Assembly (NCBI GenBank): GCA_944324485.1
Contig: CALUWM010000015.1
Span: forward strand, 1 to 43,406
Source of the DNA: Candidatus Gastranaerophilales bacterium
Lineage (GTDB): Bacteria; Cyanobacteriota; Vampirovibrionia; Gastranaerophilales; Gastranaerophilaceae
Reading direction: 5' to 3'
DNA length: 43,406 bases
Part shown: piece after piece, positions 23,077 to 34,733 of the stretch
Layout of the letters: each line of letters starts with the position of its first letter
Numbering within the stretch: the stretch's first letter is position 1
Program-made: the position numbers and the translations under genes
Notes under the pieces: generated by a model
Seen by the model: the letters and a program-made list of their open reading frames with translations, nothing else
The model's database searches: none
Told to the model about the DNA's origin: nothing

Positions 23077-23331
23077 ATGGGTAAATGTAAAAAAAGAACT
23101 TTATACAGGTCAAATTTTTCCTCAGATATATCTTTTATGACCAGAGAAAAAGCAGTTAACAACATACTTAGAACAATTACGGAAAATTCAACCAAAAACA
23201 ATAAAAAAAGTGATTTTTCGTTTAAAAAAGCACTAAACACAATTAGTCTTTTTGGAATTTCAGCAGAAGAACTATCGGAAGCCGGTGTTCCCTATGAAAA
23301 TTTACTTGCTCTTGGTTCTATAATAAACTAA
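23077..23331 (+). CDS. Small protein of unknown function, divergent from the RelA/SpoT-like gene
   Basis: An 84-residue basic protein that I do not recognise. DISFMTRE near residue 20 echoes the [IV]-S-F-x-[A/T]-x-E motif of two other proteins in the window. The C-terminus (GISAEELSEAGVPYENLLALG) looks like a compact helical module. The ATG at 23077 is about 21 bases after the predicted transcription start; a TTG at 23062 in the same frame would add five residues. Neither has a Shine-Dalgarno. Its stop overlaps the convergent glycine-zipper gene by four bases (CTAA). The good promoter and protein-like C-terminus argue that it is real. Confidence 0.5.
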   Translation: MGKCKKRTLYRSNFSSDISFMTREKAVNNILRTITENSTKNNKKSDFSFKKALNTISLFGISAEELSEAGVPYENLLALGSIIN

Positions 23332-24224
23332 GCATTGTAGTCCGTCATTGCTCTTTGCTGAAGTTGATTTTGGGTTTCTATTGTTTGTGCAATTTGAGTT
23401 TGTTGCTTATTAGCTTCAGATTCGTTTTCACCTATTACTTTATTTACAACCTTTGTTACATTAGAACCTATCAACATACTGCCTAACATATCGCCAACTT
23501 TAGCACCTACGGCACTTCCTGCCCCCGGACAAATAATAGTTCCTATTGCTCCTCCAACAAGTCTTCCTAAAGCACTACCTGCCGCATATGATAAGAAGTT
23601 TGAACCAATTTTTAAAATTGACTTACCTGTTTGTTTCAAACCCTCGACAAAACCTTTTTCTTTAAATGTAGGTACGATTTTTCCGGTAATTTCAGGCAAC
23701 GCCTCAAGAGCTGTCATCGCAATAACGATAGGATTTTTAATTTCATTTTTGAAGAATTTTTTAGCATTATTTTTCAAACCCCTTTCAGCAGCCTCTTCCA
23801 CCAAAAGCTTACCGTTGCTAAGAGTAGCCTCGGCACTACTTTTAGCAATTTTCGCATCTTCAAGCTGCTTACTTATATCTTCAAATGTTACTTTCTTATC
23901 TTGTTTTCTAAATAAGTTAAAAAACCTCTGAGTTAATGACAATTTACCTTTGCCTACTTTTTTATCAAGTTTACTTACTTTTTTTGATAAATCTCTATAT
24001 TTATCATAATTTTCAGCCAAAGCATTGGCTTTTGTAAAACAATCACCATCAAGAACGCCTTGCATTTTCTTAAAATCACTTTTTCTACATGCAGAAAGTG
24101 CTTGTTTTATACCATGATTTCTTTTAATAGAACCAATAGCACCCGCGCCTGTTGTAATAACAGGAAAAGCCAGATATGAAGCCGCAGTTGACGCAGCTGA
24201 TTGTTGAACTTGTTCGTTTGACAT
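23328..24224 (-). CDS. Glycine-zipper membrane-associated protein of unknown function
   Basis: This 298-residue protein is not in a family I can name. Residues about 205-262 form a glycine-zipper region with small-residue repeats such as GSALGRLVGGAIGT and GSAVGAKVGDMLG, able to insert in or oligomerise at membranes. Residues about 75-140 are charged and helical, with coiled-coil tendency. A short hydrophobic stretch lies near the N-terminus, but it is not a clear signal peptide. AAGGAG precedes the ATG. Glycine zippers occur in secreted pore-forming toxins, phage tail proteins and outer-membrane proteins; none can be chosen here. It lies beside the RelA/SpoT-like gene in an accessory patch. 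Confidence 0.7.
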   Translation of the reverse strand: MSNEQVQQSAASTAASYLAFPVITTGAGAIGSIKRNHGIKQALSACRKSDFKKMQGVLDGDCFTKANALAENYDKYRDLSKKVSKLDKKVGKGKLSLTQRFFNLFRKQDKKVTFEDISKQLEDAKIAKSSAEATLSNGKLLVEEAAERGLKNNAKKFFKNEIKNPIVIAMTALEALPEITGKIVPTFKEKGFVEGLKQTGKSILKIGSNFLSYAAGSALGRLVGGAIGTIICPGAGSAVGAKVGDMLGSMLIGSNVTKVVNKVIGENESEANKQQTQIAQTIETQNQLQQRAMTDYNA

Positions 24225-26688: not shown

Positions 26689-27447
26689 TTATTTCTTTCG
26701 AATAAAATCCAAAACGGCATTTATAAAGGTTAAAGGATGAGTCGGACAACCGGGAATATACAAGTCGACTTTATATTTATCTAAAAATTCTCGATTTATT
26801 TCGCTTGCTTCTTGAAAAACACCGCCTGATAAAGCACAAGCTCCACATAACACTACTATTCTGGGTTCCGGAGTTGATTTATAACAATCTTCAAGCGCAT
26901 AAGCCATATTCTTTGCAATAGGACCCGTAATAACAATACCGTCTGCATGTCTTGGAGAAGCAACAAAATCTATCCCAAAACGCCCCATATCAAAGTTTGC
27001 ATTTCCTGCAGCATTTAGCTCCATTTCGCAACCATTGCAACCACCCGCAGAAACTTGTCTGAATTTCAATGAACGATTAAATATTGAATAAATTTCTTTT
27101 CTTACTTCAATAGCCCTTTTTTGATAAACTTCTTGTGTTATTTCTTCAGTTACAATTAATTTTTCTTTTTTATCCGCACCCAATTTATAATAAGAAGAAA
27201 AATTAATAGAATTATTTTTGCAAATATTTTTACAAGCACCGCAAAGAGTGCATTTTGCAAGATCAATCGACAAAGGATTGATATTTAAAGCACCTGTCGG
27301 ACAAACACTTTTGCAAAGTCCGCATTTATCACAATTTGAATTATTCAAAACCGGCAAACCTCTGAATTGGCTTCTCATAGGCGCATTTTTAATATCCGGA
27401 ATATATTGTTTCTTTTGATATAACTTCATTTTTAAAGTATCAAACAT
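26689..27447 (-). CDS. Ferredoxin/NuoB-like fusion subunit of an energy-converting complex
   Basis: A 252-residue fusion. Residues 39-76 form a 2[4Fe-4S] ferredoxin domain (C39/C42/C45/C49 and C66/C69/C72/C76), like HyfH/NuoI. Residues about 130-252 are a HyfI/NuoB-type small subunit with CNGCE (C137, C140), LCGAC (C204) and PGCPTHP (C234), the ligands of the N2-type cluster. In the E. coli hyf operon these are separate proteins. It is the last gene of the operon. It would pass electrons from ferredoxin to the large subunit on the cytoplasmic side. Confidence 0.88.
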   Translation of the reverse strand: MFDTLKMKLYQKKQYIPDIKNAPMRSQFRGLPVLNNSNCDKCGLCKSVCPTGALNINPLSIDLAKCTLCGACKNICKNNSINFSSYYKLGADKKEKLIVTEEITQEVYQKRAIEVRKEIYSIFNRSLKFRQVSAGGCNGCEMELNAAGNANFDMGRFGIDFVASPRHADGIVITGPIAKNMAYALEDCYKSTPEPRIVVLCGACALSGGVFQEASEINREFLDKYKVDLYIPGCPTHPLTFINAVLDFIRKK

Positions 27448-27471
27448 AATTATTTTCCTTTTTAAAACTTA

Positions 27472-28923
27472 CTATAAATCAAACCCGCAATAAGAAAGGT
27501 CAAATCCCTTGTTACACAACGGAAAATCAGAAATACCGTTGTTTCTTACCGCCATAGATAAACCATACCAATTATTAAAGGAAGGATCTTTTATTTTATA
27601 GCGAGATAGTTTACCTTCACCATCAGTTGTGGCAACATGCACCAACTCACCTCTCCAGCCTTCAACAATACTTATAGCAAAACTATTTGGAATCAAATCT
27701 TTTTTTACTACACATATTTCTTCTTTTTCAAAACTTTCAAGTTTCTTTAAAAGTTTTTTTATAAACGAAATTGACTCAATTATTTCTTTATATCTTATCT
27801 TAAACCTTGAATAAGCATCATTTGTTGCTCTAAAAGGTTTCCTTTCTAAATCTTTATAAAATTCATCACAAAAATCAAATCTGGTATCTAAATTTATACC
27901 GCAAGACCTTCCAATCATTCCGACAAGATTTAATTCTTCTGCTGTTTCTTTACTAACTACCCCTGTTTTTTCAAGTCTGGACATTACAGTAGAACTTTTC
28001 AAGGCAGCTTTTGTCATTTTTTCGACTGTATTTTTTACTCCGTTTAAAGTGCTTATAATTTTATCAGATAATTCTTTATTAATATCAAAATTAACACCAC
28101 CGGTTGTTATTAACCCTCTTGCAAATCTGCTTCCCGAAATCTCAAGCATAGTATTAATAACAAGAGTTCTTGTAACCCCATACACTTCTTTTCCCATTAA
28201 ATATGCAATATCCCCCAATATTGCACCCAAATCACCTATATGAATAGCAGCTCTTTCCATTTCAAGAGCTATCCTTCTTATTAATTTTGCTTTTGTAGTT
28301 ATTTCCATGCCACATAGCTCTTCCATAACCTGAGAATATGCCATATTATACGCTACAACACTATCTCCACAAATAGATTCAGCTAATTGGTTTGAAGGTT
28401 TTTTTACAAGCAAATCTTCAACTCCACGATGCTGATATCCAAGCATGATTTCCAAATTATAAATTTTTTCACCTTGGCACATAAACCTAAAATGGCCAGG
28501 TTCTATTACTCCGGCATGAATTGGACCAACAGCAACCTGATGAGTTTCTTCACCTTCCATTTCAAAAAATTCATAATTGTCTTGATTTTTTCTAACAGGT
28601 TTTAACCAAGGATGTCCAAGCGGTTTAATATTAAATTGTTCAAAAAACTCACGCTCAAACATATGATATTGGTGATTTTCTTTAGTAATAGATTCATATT
28701 CCTTTATATTTTTATCAATTAAAGACGAACTTACAAGCAATTCACCTTTTTCATCATCAGCTAAAACAACAAATAATTTAATATTTTGACCCCAATCAGA
28801 ACCAAAAAACGATACCGGTCTCAGATTTGTAGCAACCAACTGAGCTCTTAAAACATCAAAATCAACTGTCGGTATATCAAGAAGATTGATTCTTTGATTA
28901 TTTTTCATAACATAATAGTTCAT
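27472..28923 (-). CDS. Hydrogenase-4-like large subunit lacking the [NiFe] site (HyfG/NuoCD type)
   Basis: A 483-residue NuoC-NuoD fusion. Residues about 1-110 are NuoC-like. Then comes GPIHAGVIEPGHFRF (133-147) and the large-subunit core. Group 4 [NiFe] hydrogenases have CxxC motifs at both ends (CGIC and DPCxxC). Here the first is C185-G-D-S188, and the second region is D446-P-S-F-N-N451-W, so three of the four metal-binding cysteines are absent. It should not evolve or oxidise H2. The C-terminus is not processed at a Ni site. It fits the Ehr (energy-converting hydrogenase-related) complexes of the complex I superfamily, whose substrate is unknown. Confidence 0.88.
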   Translation of the reverse strand: MNYYVMKNNQRINLLDIPTVDFDVLRAQLVATNLRPVSFFGSDWGQNIKLFVVLADDEKGELLVSSSLIDKNIKEYESITKENHQYHMFEREFFEQFNIKPLGHPWLKPVRKNQDNYEFFEMEGEETHQVAVGPIHAGVIEPGHFRFMCQGEKIYNLEIMLGYQHRGVEDLLVKKPSNQLAESICGDSVVAYNMAYSQVMEELCGMEITTKAKLIRRIALEMERAAIHIGDLGAILGDIAYLMGKEVYGVTRTLVINTMLEISGSRFARGLITTGGVNFDINKELSDKIISTLNGVKNTVEKMTKAALKSSTVMSRLEKTGVVSKETAEELNLVGMIGRSCGINLDTRFDFCDEFYKDLERKPFRATNDAYSRFKIRYKEIIESISFIKKLLKKLESFEKEEICVVKKDLIPNSFAISIVEGWRGELVHVATTDGEGKLSRYKIKDPSFNNWYGLSMAVRNNGISDFPLCNKGFDLSYCGFDL

Positions 28924-28934
28924 TTGACATCTCC

Positions 28935-30371
28935 TTAACCTACAATTGTACTTCTAATAACTATATCCAAAAACTGAGGCAAATATATGCCTAAAACAAA
29001 CGCCAAAGTCAGCAAAACGCACTGAGGAACATACATTGAAATCGTAACTTTGGAAAGATTTTTACTTGCAATCTCAGATTTTTCTTCACTTTTCTCACCA
29101 AAAACCATTTTGATTACAACTTTAGCCATTGCATATAAAATAACAGTCAACAAAAATAAAAACAAAACACATAATACATAATGTTTTTGAATAAGCATTG
29201 CTTTAACTGTTAAAAACTCACTTACAAAAAGCATACTTGGCGGAAAAGCACAAATTCCAAGGAATGAAGCAATCCAAAGCCATGCTGTTTTTCTGTCAAT
29301 TTGTGCCAAAGCACGAACAGATTTGATTCTTTTTGTTTCAAATAACTCTAATATATTTCCTGAAGTCAAAAAATAAGAAGCTTTAATTAAAGAATGACCA
29401 ATTAAATGAATTATTAAAGCATAATAAGCAATGCCACCAAGAGCAGTAGCTATCGCTAAAATACCCATATTTTCAATGGATGAATAAGCAAGCATTCTTT
29501 TATAATTTGTTGTATGGTATAAAAATACGGCAGTAATAAACAAAGACAAAAATCCCATAAACAAAAGAACGATTCTTGCATATGTATAACAATTTGCAAC
29601 AAGCATTATTTTATATACATTTAAAATAACTAAAAATGCACAATTCAATAAAGTCGCAGATAACAAAGCGGATATTGGACTTGGTGCTTCCGAGTGAGCA
29701 TCCGGAAGCCAAAAATGAACAGGTGCAAGACCCATCTTTGTACCCAAACCAAACAATATAAATACAAAAGAAACATTTAACCAAAAATGATTAAAAGATT
29801 GAGCATTATTTATCAAATCAATATAATTTAAAGAATTTAAATTACCTTCTGCAACTGTTAAAAGAATGATGCCTACAAAAGCAAGAGCAATACCTATTGA
29901 ACAGATAAAAACATATTTCCAAGCAGCCTCGATAGAGTGTTTTGTTTTATTAAAATAAATTAAATACGCACTTGCTAAGGTTGTACCTTCAATAAATATC
30001 CAAGCCAAACCTAAATTATTGCTTAAAATGCCGCCTGTCATTGAAAGCACAAAAATTAAAAGCATTGTTGCATAATGCATAATTTTTTTATCTGAAAATG
30101 CAAGGTTTTTGCTATAACCATTATTGTAGATTGCAACAGCCAGAAAAACTACTGATAATATTAAATAAAATATTATATTTGAAGGGTTTAAACTAAAGTA
30201 TTGATTATTCATCAAATATTGTGATTTTGTAAAATAACAAATACCGCAATATAAATGCAAAATTGCATAAATATTAATTAAGATATTATTTAAAGTTTTA
30301 TTTTTTGCAAAAAACAAAACTAAACAAAAAACAATAGGTGCCAATAAAACTATACTAATCATTATACTCAC
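28935..30371 (-). CDS. Antiporter-like proton-translocating subunit (HyfF/NuoN type)
   Basis: A 478-residue membrane protein with about 13-14 helices, of the Mrp/NuoL-M-N family. Conserved family features are the Glu in FIEGTTLASAYLIYFNK and the LPDAHSEAPSPISALLS loop-helix between helices, followed by buried lysine/histidine candidates. It would carry one ion-pumping channel of the complex. Its start overlaps the upstream HyfE-like gene by 17 bases. Confidence 0.9.
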   Translation of the reverse strand: MSIMISIVLLAPIVFCLVLFFAKNKTLNNILINIYAILHLYCGICYFTKSQYLMNNQYFSLNPSNIIFYLILSVVFLAVAIYNNGYSKNLAFSDKKIMHYATMLLIFVLSMTGGILSNNLGLAWIFIEGTTLASAYLIYFNKTKHSIEAAWKYVFICSIGIALAFVGIILLTVAEGNLNSLNYIDLINNAQSFNHFWLNVSFVFILFGLGTKMGLAPVHFWLPDAHSEAPSPISALLSATLLNCAFLVILNVYKIMLVANCYTYARIVLLFMGFLSLFITAVFLYHTTNYKRMLAYSSIENMGILAIATALGGIAYYALIIHLIGHSLIKASYFLTSGNILELFETKRIKSVRALAQIDRKTAWLWIASFLGICAFPPSMLFVSEFLTVKAMLIQKHYVLCVLFLFLLTVILYAMAKVVIKMVFGEKSEEKSEIASKNLSKVTISMYVPQCVLLTLAFVLGIYLPQFLDIVIRSTIVG

Positions 30372-31005
30372 AGTCCTTTAAATCAGATAAATGTGCTACT
30401 TCCATATCTCCAAGTTCAGTATTTATTTGCGAAACAAATAAACCTAATATATAAATTGCAATAAATACATCTAATAAAACACCGATATTAACAAGCATTG
30501 GCATTTCTTTTGCAACAGAAAGAGACAAAAGAAAAATTCCGTTCTCCATAGTTATAAACTCAATAACGTTAGATAAAATCTTGTGTTTTATTGTAATTAA
30601 CCAAAGACTAATTATTATCACTGCCAAAGCTATACCAAAACAAAACGGATTAATCATCGCTAATGAAGGAATTTCAATAACCGACAACATAAATCCGCCA
30701 AATAAAATTATGCTTGATATCAAAAGGCAATAGAAATGTGCTATATTTGCATCTGTATCACGATTTGAATGAGTCTTTTTTAATACCTTATTTAAAAACA
30801 AAGGAATCAATATTGCTTTAACTACAAGCGTTTCAATGGTTAAAAAAGCAATTAAATACCAAGGTAAGTGTGAAAATGCAGTTGCACAAATCAAAAATAA
30901 TAGAATACCCTGAACCATAATTGTTTTAACATGAGCTATCAATCTGCTTGTTGCGGAAAGATAAAGCATTGTCAAACCAAACAATATTATAAATCCGTTT
31001 TCCAC
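30355..31005 (-). CDS. Membrane subunit (HyfE type, NuoK-like)
   Basis: A 216-residue protein with about six or seven membrane helices, resembling hydrogenase-4 component E. The C-terminal part from FITMENGIF onward corresponds to the NuoK-like core, with acidic residues in helices (FITMENG and LLDVF). It is placed between the NuoH-like and antiporter-like genes as in hyf operons. The role is structural and ion-channel coupling. The last 17 bases overlap the HyfF-like gene. Confidence 0.85.
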   Translation of the reverse strand: MENGFIILFGLTMLYLSATSRLIAHVKTIMVQGILLFLICATAFSHLPWYLIAFLTIETLVVKAILIPLFLNKVLKKTHSNRDTDANIAHFYCLLISSIILFGGFMLSVIEIPSLAMINPFCFGIALAVIIISLWLITIKHKILSNVIEFITMENGIFLLSLSVAKEMPMLVNIGVLLDVFIAIYILGLFVSQINTELGDMEVAHLSDLKDCEYND

Positions 31006-31017
31006 GATATTACTCCT

Positions 31018-31947
31018 TTAAATCCCATACATTTTAACAGCTGCCAATGAAGCAACCACAAGTGCAAAAGATGACATTACAAAAACAAACTCAAATACAT
31101 GGCTCATCCTAAGCCTTGCTATTGCAGACTCAAGAGTCCCTATCAATACAGAAAACAATATCAAAGCTAATAAAAACAACCCGATACTTGCCATTGTACT
31201 AAGCCCCAAAGGTATAATTAAATTTGCTATTAATGCCATCAAAATAACCATTTTTATACCGCTTGCCCAAGTTAAAAGAGCTAAATCAATACCGGAATTA
31301 TCTAAAATCATTACCTCATGAATCATAGTCAATTCTAAATGTGTTGTCGGATCATCCACAGGAACTCTTGAACATTCTGTCAATAACATAATAAATAAAG
31401 AAATAACCGCCATTATAACAATCAAAACACCAAATGTGCCGTTTGATTTAATAACATCAGCTAATGAAACAAAAGTATAATTCCCGCTAAGTGCAGTTAA
31501 GGAAGCTAGAATTATAAAAAATGCGGGCTCTACGATAGTTGTAAATGAAGCTTCCCTGCTTGCCCCCATTCCTTCAAAACTACTTCCTGTATCCATAGCT
31601 GAAATCAAAGCGAAAAATTTTCCCAAACCAAGTATATATGAAAAAATAACAAATGCTCCAACAACATTAATAATAGAATGACATTGAACCATAGGAACAA
31701 AAAGTCCGGCAAACAAAGTGGTTGCAAATACTACAATTGGAGCAAAATTAAATATCCAAGAGGTAGTGTTACTTATTGTTCTATCTTTTTTAAACAACCT
31801 TATAGTGTCAAACAAGGGTTGAAGTAAGCATACACCTTTTCTGCCAGCCCAGAAGGCTTTTGTTTTTTTGATTATACCAATTACTAAAAACGGCATAAAC
31901 AAGAGAATTAAAATATTAAACAAAATAAACATTATATCTTTATCCAT
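31018..31947 (-). CDS. NuoH/HyfC-like membrane subunit
   Basis: A 309-residue protein with about eight helices, the membrane anchor that links the hydrophilic module to the pump. Diagnostic segments are GRKGVCLLQPLFDTIRLFKK near residue 40, SFEGMGASREASF in the loop facing the redox module, and ELTMIHEVMILDNSG. These charged loops are conserved in NuoH and in all group 4 complexes. It begins four bases after the stop of the HyfB-like gene. Confidence 0.92.
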   Translation of the reverse strand: MDKDIMFILFNILILLFMPFLVIGIIKKTKAFWAGRKGVCLLQPLFDTIRLFKKDRTISNTTSWIFNFAPIVVFATTLFAGLFVPMVQCHSIINVVGAFVIFSYILGLGKFFALISAMDTGSSFEGMGASREASFTTIVEPAFFIILASLTALSGNYTFVSLADVIKSNGTFGVLIVIMAVISLFIMLLTECSRVPVDDPTTHLELTMIHEVMILDNSGIDLALLTWASGIKMVILMALIANLIIPLGLSTMASIGLFLLALILFSVLIGTLESAIARLRMSHVFEFVFVMSSFALVVASLAAVKMYGI

Positions 31948-31951
31948 TTTC

Positions 31952-33928
31952 TTATCCCAATATAACTACACAAATTAATGCCAATGCCAAAAATACAAGC
32001 CCATATGTTATATATTGCTGTATATTTCCATTTTGTATTTTTTCGAATTTTGCAAAAAATGCCTCAACTGATTTTAAAAGCGGTTTCAAAAAGTATGCTT
32101 CTTCAACATCTTCCATGTGCATTTCAAAATGAGCATCATGTGGAAAGATTGTCTTTGGTTTTTTAATATCAACCACCTTTTTAAACAAAGGAGTTAACAT
32201 TGTTATAAAAGGAGAGGCATAAGATGAAGCACTGTATTGCATACGACTTGTAGGTTTATTATAACCGCAGCCCCAAGTAACATATTTTTCATTTTTATTT
32301 TTAAAGAAATATTTAAATCCAAACAATGCAAAAATCAAAACAATTAATGCAAAAGCAGTCAAAGAAACAACTTGCATTAATGAAATTATTTGATTTTGTT
32401 CGAACAAACATCCATCAACAAAAATGCTAACCGGCTTTAACATAAAATCAAAAACAAATTGAGGGAATAAACCGATTAGAAGTGTAAACACAGCTAAAAG
32501 AGACATAGGGAAAATAAATGATATAGTTGTATCTTCTTTAACATCCATAGCCTTTTTACTTCTGGGTTCGCCCAAAAATACTATACTAAAAGCTTTTGTA
32601 AAACAAAGTATTGCCATTGTTCCAACCAAAGCAAGTCCTGCTATTGAAAGAATTAAAACTATAAATACAGCTATATTATCAACCATAAGTCCTTTTAACA
32701 TGCCAAAATATATTAAAAATTCACTTATAAAACCATTAAAAGGCGGGAGTCCGCATATCGCAATGGAAGCGATTAAAAATAAAACAGCCGTTTTTGGCAT
32801 AGTTTTAATTAAACCACCCAATATTTCTATATCTCTCGTGTGGGTCTTTGTATATACAGAACCAGCGGCCAAAAACAAAAGTTCTTTGAAAATAGAATGG
32901 TTTAAGATATGTAAAATTCCACCCGCAAAACCCAATATAGCAACAACAGGACAATTATAAGTTAAGCCCAACATACCAACACCGATACCTATACCGATTA
33001 TTCCGATATTTTCAATACTGTGATATGCCAAAAGTCTTTTTATATCATGCTGGCTTATAGCATATAAAACCCCATATAAAGCCGATATTACAGATATTAT
33101 TAAAACAAAGTATCCTATTTGTGCTTCAGGATGGGATATAAAAGTTAAAACTCTTAAAATACCATATATTCCTGTCTTTATCATAATGCCGCTCATCATA
33201 GCAGATACGTGGCTCGGAGCAGCAGGGTGCGCATCTGGAAGCCAATTATGAAACGGAAAGAAACCAGCCTTTATTCCAAAACCAATAAACGCTAAAACAA
33301 AAGCTACATTAGCTAAAGCACTATTTACACTAAATGCGTCCATAAATTGTGCAAAATTAAAACTGGATGTTTGAATTGAAAACAATGCAAATGTAACAAT
33401 AATAAATACAACACTAACGTGCATATATACCAAATATTTTATTCCTGCTTTTATAACATCCTTTTTTTCATGTTCAAAAATAACAAGAAAAAACGAAGAC
33501 AAAGACATTATTTCCCATACTATTAAAAATGCTAAAGCATTCTGTATTGTTACAACCAATAACATTGATGCAATTAACATAGGCAAAAACAAGCAATGAG
33601 CGGTGATATTTTTACCCTTTTTAATATAATCTTTCAAATATCCGTTGGCATAGATAACAGAAAGAAGGGACATTACAGAGATGACTGCGACAAAGAACGC
33701 AGAAAGATAGTCCATAGAAATAACTATATTCTGAAACATCACCCCAATTGAGAATATTTCAGAAAGCTTGCCTGAAATAAAAACTTTTATTGCATCAAAA
33801 ATACAAAAACATGAAGCAATAAAAGTCATAAAAGACACAAATTTAATTTTATAATCTTGTTTTTTAATAAACAAAGAAACTAGTCCGCCCAAAAATAAGG
33901 CAATAATTCCTATAAAAAAATTCTCCAT
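31952..33928 (-). CDS. Antiporter-like proton-translocating subunit (HyfB/NuoL type)
   Basis: The first gene of the six-gene operon: 658 residues, about 14-16 helices plus a C-terminal extension. The conserved Glu is in VWEIMSLSSFFLV, and the LPDAHPAAPSHVSAMMSG segment marks the family. About 150 residues after the 14-helix core include a soluble stretch (CGYNKPTSRMQYSASSY) seen in HyfB-like proteins, and a final helix. The Shine-Dalgarno is AGAGGAAAT. The operon order B-C-E-F-G-(H+I) matches hyf, without genes for A, D and J. Confidence 0.92.
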   Translation of the reverse strand: MENFFIGIIALFLGGLVSLFIKKQDYKIKFVSFMTFIASCFCIFDAIKVFISGKLSEIFSIGVMFQNIVISMDYLSAFFVAVISVMSLLSVIYANGYLKDYIKKGKNITAHCLFLPMLIASMLLVVTIQNALAFLIVWEIMSLSSFFLVIFEHEKKDVIKAGIKYLVYMHVSVVFIIVTFALFSIQTSSFNFAQFMDAFSVNSALANVAFVLAFIGFGIKAGFFPFHNWLPDAHPAAPSHVSAMMSGIMIKTGIYGILRVLTFISHPEAQIGYFVLIISVISALYGVLYAISQHDIKRLLAYHSIENIGIIGIGIGVGMLGLTYNCPVVAILGFAGGILHILNHSIFKELLFLAAGSVYTKTHTRDIEILGGLIKTMPKTAVLFLIASIAICGLPPFNGFISEFLIYFGMLKGLMVDNIAVFIVLILSIAGLALVGTMAILCFTKAFSIVFLGEPRSKKAMDVKEDTTISFIFPMSLLAVFTLLIGLFPQFVFDFMLKPVSIFVDGCLFEQNQIISLMQVVSLTAFALIVLIFALFGFKYFFKNKNEKYVTWGCGYNKPTSRMQYSASSYASPFITMLTPLFKKVVDIKKPKTIFPHDAHFEMHMEDVEEAYFLKPLLKSVEAFFAKFEKIQNGNIQQYITYGLVFLALALICVVILG

Positions 33929-34214: not shown

Positions 34215-34733
34215 ATGATTCAACCGTTAAAATATAACAATAACATATCATTTAAAGCTAACGAACAAAAAAATACAAATACGGAAGATAAGCCATCTTT
34301 AAAGAAAAGATTTGTTAATGTAATAAAAGGAGTCAATGACATTACATCAACAACTAAAGGTGTTACAAGAGGTATCACGGAAGGTATAGCTGCAACAGCA
34401 ATAATAGGTCTTGTAGGAAAAAATATAAAAGAAACAAATGCAAATATATTTAAGACTGCATTGGGAATTATAAAAGATGCAGCAAAAGCTACTTGGTCTA
34501 CTGCAAAATTTATTCCCCAAATATTAACTAAAGCACCGGTTGAAAATTTAAAAGATATTTCAGCATTGCCTGTAAAATTCTATAAAGATTATTTAAAAAA
34601 TAATAAAACAACAGCTTCAATTGCTACATTTGCAGGTTTAGGCGTACTTGCATTTAGAACAATTCAAGGAAAGATTAAAGCAAATTTAAAAAATGCAAAT
34701 GTTGACCACGCAACTAAAACAAAACATTATTAA
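34215..34733 (+). CDS. Lineage-type ISFKA-motif protein of unknown function
   Basis: A 172-residue basic protein that I cannot name. The N-terminus MIQPLKYNNNISFKANEQ carries the motif ISFKANE (residues 11-17), shared in form with VSFTASE in the RelA/SpoT-like protein and ISFMTRE in the small protein at 23077. Residues about 50-75 have Thr/Gly-rich amphipathic character (TSTTKGVTRGITEGIAATAIIGLVG), and a second hydrophobic segment lies at about 135-150. No classical signal peptide is present. The strong AAAGGTGG Shine-Dalgarno suggests good expression. A secreted or membrane-associated role is only a guess. Confidence 0.7.
   Translation: MIQPLKYNNNISFKANEQKNTNTEDKPSLKKRFVNVIKGVNDITSTTKGVTRGITEGIAATAIIGLVGKNIKETNANIFKTALGIIKDAAKATWSTAKFIPQILTKAPVENLKDISALPVKFYKDYLKNNKTTASIATFAGLGVLAFRTIQGKIKANLKNANVDHATKTKHY

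Follow-up and report, generated by a model that had tools for sequence, protein, structure and literature searches.

The hydrogenase-like operon and its membrane arm

A complex assembled from hydrogenase-type subunits, whose large subunit has lost the [NiFe] ligands, raises the question of what it reduces. Such a complex is encoded in the window, the 43,406-nucleotide stretch analysed here, which belongs to a 1.72-Mb, 99.6% complete genome of the Gastranaerophilales ('Melainabacteria'). Six contiguous, intact ORFs occupy positions 26689-33928 of the minus strand in the order hyfB-C-E-F-G-(H+I fused), and the ORFs and family matches agree with the hyf order given in the preliminary description. 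The hyfB-like gene (31952..33928, minus strand, as are all six) encodes an antiporter-type pump subunit of 658 aa (PF00361, 5e-58) whose best NCBIfam match was hydrogenase 4 subunit B. It is followed by genes for a hyfC/NuoH-like membrane anchor of 309 aa (31018..31947; PF00146, 2e-31), a hyfE-like membrane subunit of 216 aa (30355..31005) and a hyfF-like antiporter-type pump subunit of 478 aa (28935..30371; PF00361, 7e-51). The remaining two genes encode a NuoCD/HyfG-like large subunit of 483 aa (27472..28923; PF00346, 1.8e-34) and a 252-aa fusion of a HyfH-like ferredoxin with a NuoB/HyfI-like small subunit (26689..27447; Fer4; PF01058, 2.7e-27). The earlier assignments of the two pumps and of the NuoH-like, NuoCD-type and ferredoxin-NuoB subunits stand, but the subunit first called NuoK-like is better named HyfE-like, given its match to the NCBIfam hydrogenase 4 membrane subunit (2e-16, under the family cut-off); its operon position is kept in relatives.

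The same six-gene order was found in relatives with intact flanks. No conserved neighbour gene hinting at the acceptor lay beside the operon in relatives; the six genes alone stay together. A promoter scan gave no more matches than shuffled sequence did. In four loci (L056, L071, L076 and L079) a peripheral arm is present without a membrane arm. Loss of the membrane arm was rejected for G124, the sole genome in which the reading could be extended: its B-C-E-F genes are on a separate contig, and the operon there is split, not lost.

Ion translocation is predicted, as the pump residues of the membrane arm appear intact. In the hyfB-like subunit E139, K220, K251 and E403 align with E144, K234, K265 and E407 of NuoM, and the hyfF-like subunit has E128, K212, N243 and E385; at the third of these positions HyfF and the Variovorax Ehr have Asn too. 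The hyfC/NuoH-like subunit keeps NuoH E157, D213 and E220 as E140, D198 and E205; NuoH E36, E216 and E218 are replaced by I, T and H.

Loss of the [NiFe] site and placement among Ehr complexes

The preliminary description had placed C185-G-D-S188 in the position of the first CxxC motif of the large subunit, and alignment with HycE, HyfG and NuoD bears this out. The same alignment relocates the second motif. Both phmmer and MAFFT put the remnant of DPCxxC at D475-L-S477-Y-C479-G480, at the extreme C-terminus, the chain stopping three residues past G480. D446-P-S-F-N-N451, to which the motif had been assigned, belongs to a D446PSFNNW segment that aligns with the upstream R-A-A-T-Y-A-N-W of HycE/HyfG and with T/PSF in NuoD and MbhL. 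The claim that three of the four metal cysteines are gone survives this correction: C185 is kept, and S188, S477 and G480 replace the others. These three ligands are lost throughout 111 aligned sequences, one of them truncated at the C-terminus. Since identical motif residues occur in loci of some 80 other genomes, and the loss is shared by the 110 other sequences, sequencing error is ruled out as its cause. Position 185 is V or N in 5 of 84 distinct sequences and V, S, A or E in other Ehr (energy-converting hydrogenase-related) complexes, so that the Gastranaerophilales branch usually retains this one cysteine, which is not conserved across Ehr. A GD[ST] motif and the C-terminal signature NK[SG]x[ND]LSYxGxDL are present among the 111 large subunits. 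The second-shell residues E141, R424 and H429 are retained. The AlphaFold model of the large subunit, with E. coli HycE (7z0s_E) as best fold match, confirmed the overall fold, but its pocket segments (109-164 and 460-483) are precisely the unreliable ones, too uncertain to interpret.

The small subunit carries two [4Fe-4S] motifs and a proximal cluster site formed by C137, C140, C204 and C234. In comparisons that also took in HyfI, the loop C137-N-G-C140 aligned without gaps with MbhJ and HycG. The N2-type cluster cysteines said to remain in this subunit are indeed kept, in the CxxC form of HycG/MbhJ and not the CC form of complex I, and the proximal [4Fe-4S] site is hydrogenase-type, not MBS-type.

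Its genes and residues identify the complex as an Ehr, within the complex I superfamily. One operon encodes group 4-like large and small subunits together with Hyf/Mrp-type membrane subunits, and the CxxC motifs are lost. In a tree with some long branches, whose references came only from plasmids, E. coli and a single Pyrococcus fragment, the large subunit fell inside a 25-row Ehr clade (support 100/99), apart from HycE, HyfG, Ech, Mbh and NuoD. This placement excludes membership of the active group 4 enzymes and, with the lost ligands, upholds the original reading of an Ehr-type complex lacking a [NiFe] site. Reports from 2013 and 2019 had already described Ehr in Melainabacteria (PMC3787301, PMC6349859), and published Ehr complexes have the same subunits and have likewise lost the [NiFe] ligands. 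Plasmid-borne Ehr fall in the same clade; that of Variovorax sp. PBL-E5 (39% identity) has its six genes in identical order, with H and I likewise fused.

Comparison with better-known relatives shows a mixed inheritance. With hydrogenase-4 and formate hydrogenlyase (HyfBCEFGHI, HycE) the complex shares gene order, an N-terminal NuoC-like domain, the second-shell residues and the CxxC-type proximal cluster; it differs in having no [NiFe] ligands, HyfA/HyfD, HypD or cleavable C-terminal tail. The missing C-terminal extension, which in Hyc/Hyf-type enzymes is removed by an endopeptidase, is not decisive, as the large subunit of Butyrivibrio Ech is also tail-less. Among PDB sequences, both peripheral proteins match Pyrococcus Mbh best (MbhL, 6cfw_L, for the large subunit), and the equivalent of MbhL E21 is kept as E141; unlike Mbh, the complex has no metal site, a NuoCD-type fusion and a Hyf-type, not Mrp-type, membrane arm. 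With respiratory complex I (NuoCD) it shares the fold and the pump residues of the membrane arm, but it has neither the quinone-binding His/Tyr nor an NADH module. Some relatives have a separate, true complex I.

Host gene content and occurrence across the order

Single-family searches of the host genome found no FeFe hydrogenase, no Complex1_51K protein (NuoF/HydB/RnfC type), no other complex I-type large subunit, no MqnA/D and no MenD above the cut-off; the sole MenD match was an acetolactate synthase-like enzyme. The search proposed earlier for Hyp maturation genes was made with HypD, which was not found in this 99.6% complete genome (controls positive in 4/14). The molybdopterin oxidoreductase family PF00384 gave no match in any of the 192 genomes sampled from the order, while its controls were positive in 11/14. 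In contrast to published Ehr, then, this one resides in a genome in which no hydrogenase, Complex1_51K module or molybdoenzyme was found. Two POR_N genes are present, and the c-subunit of the F-type ATP synthase lacks what we take to be the Na+ motif.

Among the 192 genomes, Ehr was found in 26 of the 27 that are negative for FeFe hydrogenase and in 34 of the 165 that are positive, a complementarity (within-genus permutation p about 0.008) that rests on few independent lineages, namely three genera and two incomplete genomes. This pattern across the order is new; the Ehr complex type itself was already described. The distribution suggests that Ehr probably stands in for FeFe hydrogenase as ferredoxin sink, using a different electron acceptor. 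The 34 genomes with both enzymes show that the two are not strictly interchangeable.

Proposed function and alternatives

We consider it somewhat better than an even chance that Ehr is a ferredoxin-oxidising, proton-pumping oxidoreductase that acts as ferredoxin sink where FeFe hydrogenase is missing. Ferredoxin reduced by 2-oxoacid:ferredoxin oxidoreductases would pass electrons to the ferredoxin domain with its two [4Fe-4S] clusters and on to the proximal cluster (C137/C140/C204/C234). A small molecule other than H+ would then be reduced in the large-subunit cavity that houses [NiFe] in hydrogenases, here presumably remodelled, with GD[ST] 186-188, N471-K472 (NKSF), Y478 and D482 as conserved polar residues. 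The NuoH-like subunit would relay energy to the two antiporter-like subunits, and the protons they expel would be used by the F-type ATP synthase. The gene content, residues, missing families, tree position and co-occurrence are observed, whereas the direction of electron flow, the donor, the ion and the acceptor site are what we infer; ferredoxin feeding and a central energy role, as first proposed, would fit the ferredoxin-type domain, the two POR_N genes and a genome lacking both FeFe hydrogenase and Complex1_51K proteins.

Di Rienzi et al. suggested that in Melainabacteria the complex runs in reverse (PMC3787301), a proton gradient made by other means pushing electrons from a donor uphill onto ferredoxin, for use in biosynthesis or by hydrogenase. 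Pumps of the complex I type can in principle work in both directions, and the 34 genomes with both enzymes would suit such a role, but Ehr is most constant where FeFe hydrogenase, the proposed ferredoxin consumer, is missing, and POR genes already provide reduced ferredoxin; we regard reverse operation as unlikely. A membrane quinone as acceptor, as in complex I, is quite unlikely. The superfamily resemblance to complex I speaks for it, as do relatives on plasmids of aerobic bacteria, which generally contain quinones, and one distant UbiA-family prenyltransferase in the host genome. UbiA is near-universal in the order, however, occurring in 189/192 genomes with or without Ehr, so this last link is uninformative; the equivalents of Nqo4 His38/Tyr87 are absent, those positions aligning with I140/E141 and G186, and the genome lacks MenD above cut-off and MqnA/D.

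Reduction of polysulfide or disulfide by the proximal [4Fe-4S] cluster has a precedent in the MBS sulfane sulfur reductase, the characterised, ferredoxin-fed superfamily member without [NiFe] (PMC7684303). MBS depends on a shortened loop with three cysteines on the proximal cluster, and its equivalent of MbhL E21 is missing (PMC7684303); neither feature holds here, where E141 is retained and the loop has the CNGC form found in MbhJ and HycG, and the MbsL score was far under those of MbhL and HycE, which makes an MBS-like reaction very unlikely. The 'NiFe hydrogenase' read in some Gastranaerophilales (PMC4040986) would agree with the nearest PDB sequence (MbhL), the nearest fold (HycE) and the kept second shell. 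A genuine, if atypical, group 4 enzyme is nevertheless strongly disfavoured by the loss of three ligands and the variability of the fourth in Ehr, by the absence of HypD and by a tree position outside the hydrogenases. A formate dehydrogenase-Ehr supercomplex, proposed for Riflemargulisbacteria, Saganbacteria and a few Melainabacteria outside the present sample (PMC6349859), has next to no probability here: no conserved additional gene adjoins the operon, and at the sensitivity of the PF00384 search the proposal is refuted for the host genome.

For the ferredoxin-oxidising Ehr, we tentatively propose a fuller account, to which we give appreciably less than even odds: in several gut Gastranaerophilales lineages Ehr may have replaced an electron-bifurcating FeFe hydrogenase, the former [NiFe] cavity may have become a conserved pocket that binds the acceptor, and ferredoxin electrons may be respired onto an undescribed small molecule, with no H2 formed. 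A genome in which searches found neither FeFe hydrogenase nor HypD, and no molybdoenzymes, menaquinone markers, NADH module or second complex I-type large subunit, narrows the choices for the Ehr substrate and shows where to look for the acceptor. The results also suggest that no H2 may be made by some of the Gastranaerophilales now listed as hydrogen producers or carrying a 'NiFe hydrogenase' annotation, which would bear on genome-based prediction of gut cross-feeding.

Operon structure, setting and earlier reports

The window corresponds to contig C15 (43,406 bases) of a genome of 1.72 Mb that is 99.6% complete, and the relatives closest to it are Candidatus Gastranaerophilales MAGs. Positions 33928 to 26689 of the minus strand are occupied by six intact ORFs whose products were assigned by profile searches to HyfB, HyfC/NuoH, HyfE, HyfF, a NuoCD/HyfG-type large subunit and a ferredoxin-NuoB fusion, in agreement with the six genes in hyf order of the preliminary description. 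The complex is of the already described energy-converting hydrogenase-related (Ehr) type, since Ehr was reported in Melainabacteria in 2013 and 2019. Di Rienzi et al. (2013; PMC3787301) described there a six-subunit membrane-bound 'NiFe hydrogenase' without the required motifs and suggested that electrons flow in reverse to ferredoxin; in Matheus Carnevali et al. (2019; PMC6349859) the name Ehr is applied to complexes of four Melainabacteria, and an FDH-Ehr complex is put forward for related phyla. For Gastranaerophilales, Soo et al. (2014; PMC4040986) reported an FeFe hydrogenase in one and 'Fe-only or NiFe' hydrogenases in others, and a 2023 study (PMC10284858) gave the function of Ehr as unknown. 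Added here are a corrected second motif, signature residues, the finding that none of the hydrogenase markers searched for is present, and complementarity with FeFe hydrogenase, none of which was found in the literature searched (most subscription journals lay outside it).

Among 80 related loci, the six genes are contiguous wherever the contig permits, with four exceptions, and no seventh gene is constantly linked. The exceptions, with genes for the large subunit and ferredoxin/NuoB but no adjoining membrane genes, are L056:9001-11276, L071:9001-11215, L076:3431-5714 and L079:2019-4305. For L056, which belongs to genome G124, stretches totalling about 1.67 Mb were read, and B-C-E-F was found on another contig, C3, at about 33.9-39.0 kb; Ehr is thus retained in G124 as two modules. 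In the window, the operon is flanked on one side by a histidine kinase and a response regulator/GGDEF protein, and on the other by a short protein without Pfam match; none of these is associated with the operon across relatives. Two proteins that match no Pfam family are encoded at 23328-24224 (-) and 34215-34733 (+), one to each side of the operon region, the latter divergent from hyfB with 286 bases between starts.

The metal site and its relatives

The first motif, C185-G-D-S188, aligned as claimed earlier to the CGIC of HycE and MbhL. The stretch D446-P-S-F-N-N451, previously taken for the DPCxxC remnant, aligns instead upstream, with RAATYANW in HycE; the DPCYSC of HycE is matched by D475-L-S477-Y-C479-G480, three residues before the C-terminus. 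With the motif so relocated, the loss of three of the four metal ligands still holds. Because V or N stands at position 185 in 5 of 84 distinct Gastranaerophilales large subunits, and Ehr from other phyla has V, S, A or E there, C185 is, judging from the alignment, unlikely to bind an essential metal. Two other features are conserved instead: the first site reads GD[ST], and the C-terminus carries NK[SG]x[ND]LSYxGxDL (83/84 sequences). K472, N471, D187 and E141 are common to the window and to proteobacterial and rhodococcal Ehr, whereas hydrogenases and NuoD share only E141; mycobacterial and Caballeronia relatives depart from the pattern.

Tree placement, a check named in the preliminary description, was carried out with 32 large subunits; the window protein fell within a 25-row Ehr clade (support 100/99), apart from HycE/HyfG, Mbh, Ech and NuoD; given several long branches and narrow reference sampling, the tree is used for separation from hydrogenases only. 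Beyond the order Gastranaerophilales, the closest sequence belongs to a plasmid-borne Ehr of Variovorax, whose six genes are arranged as in the window and include the same fusion. Plasmid 3 of Variovorax sp. PBL-E5 carries two distinct Ehr operons about 3 kb apart (L131:1770-8954 and L116:4875-12159), of which one has a ferredoxin-NuoB fusion of the Gastranaerophilales type and the other lacks it.

The NuoB-like half of the window's fusion has C137-N-G-C140, C204 and C234, a fully cysteine-ligated site of hydrogenase type, so that the N2-type cluster cysteines are indeed retained. The characterised [NiFe]-free relative, the sulfane sulfur reductase MBS, has a shortened loop, three ligands and no E21 equivalent (PMC7684303). 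Since the proximal loop and the E21 equivalent both differ in the window, an MBS mechanism is not supported. Residues equivalent to the quinone residues H38/Y87 of Nqo4 are absent from the aligned large subunit.

Ion coupling and other redox genes of the genome

Both antiporter-like subunits retain their charged pumping residues, and the NuoH-like subunit retains some of its own. The genome encodes an F-type ATP synthase. Known sodium-driven enzymes have a glutamine and a Glu-Ser pair in the c-subunit; the lack of both here suggests protons as the coupling ion.

Searches of the window's genome, each with positive controls, found no HypD (part of the hyp search suggested earlier), FeFe hydrogenase, Complex1_51K protein, molybdopterin oxidoreductase or MqnA/D, and the sole PF00346 protein is the Ehr large subunit. 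A MenD match scored below the family's cut-off and belongs to an acetolactate synthase-like enzyme. One distant UbiA-family prenyltransferase (PF01040) is present, and nearly every genome of the order has one; despite it, menaquinone markers were not found in the window's genome. The products of two POR_N genes can be a source of reduced ferredoxin.

Distribution of Ehr and FeFe hydrogenase

Four genomes (G045, G060, G069 and G123) have no Complex1_51K protein yet retain a weaker-scoring FeFe hydrogenase domain, which may represent a second FeFe type; among them, only G123 has Ehr.

Across 192 genomes of the order, Ehr was found in 60 and FeFe hydrogenase in 165. Ehr is present in 26 of the 27 FeFe-negative genomes, the sole exception being 66% complete, versus 34 of the 165 FeFe-positive genomes, a difference for which the naive Fisher p of 1.5e-14 overstates the case because FeFe losses are concentrated in three genera and two incomplete genomes. 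Shuffling within the two informative genera gave p = 0.008. These distributions support, but do not prove, the view that Ehr can take the place of FeFe hydrogenase as a ferredoxin sink.
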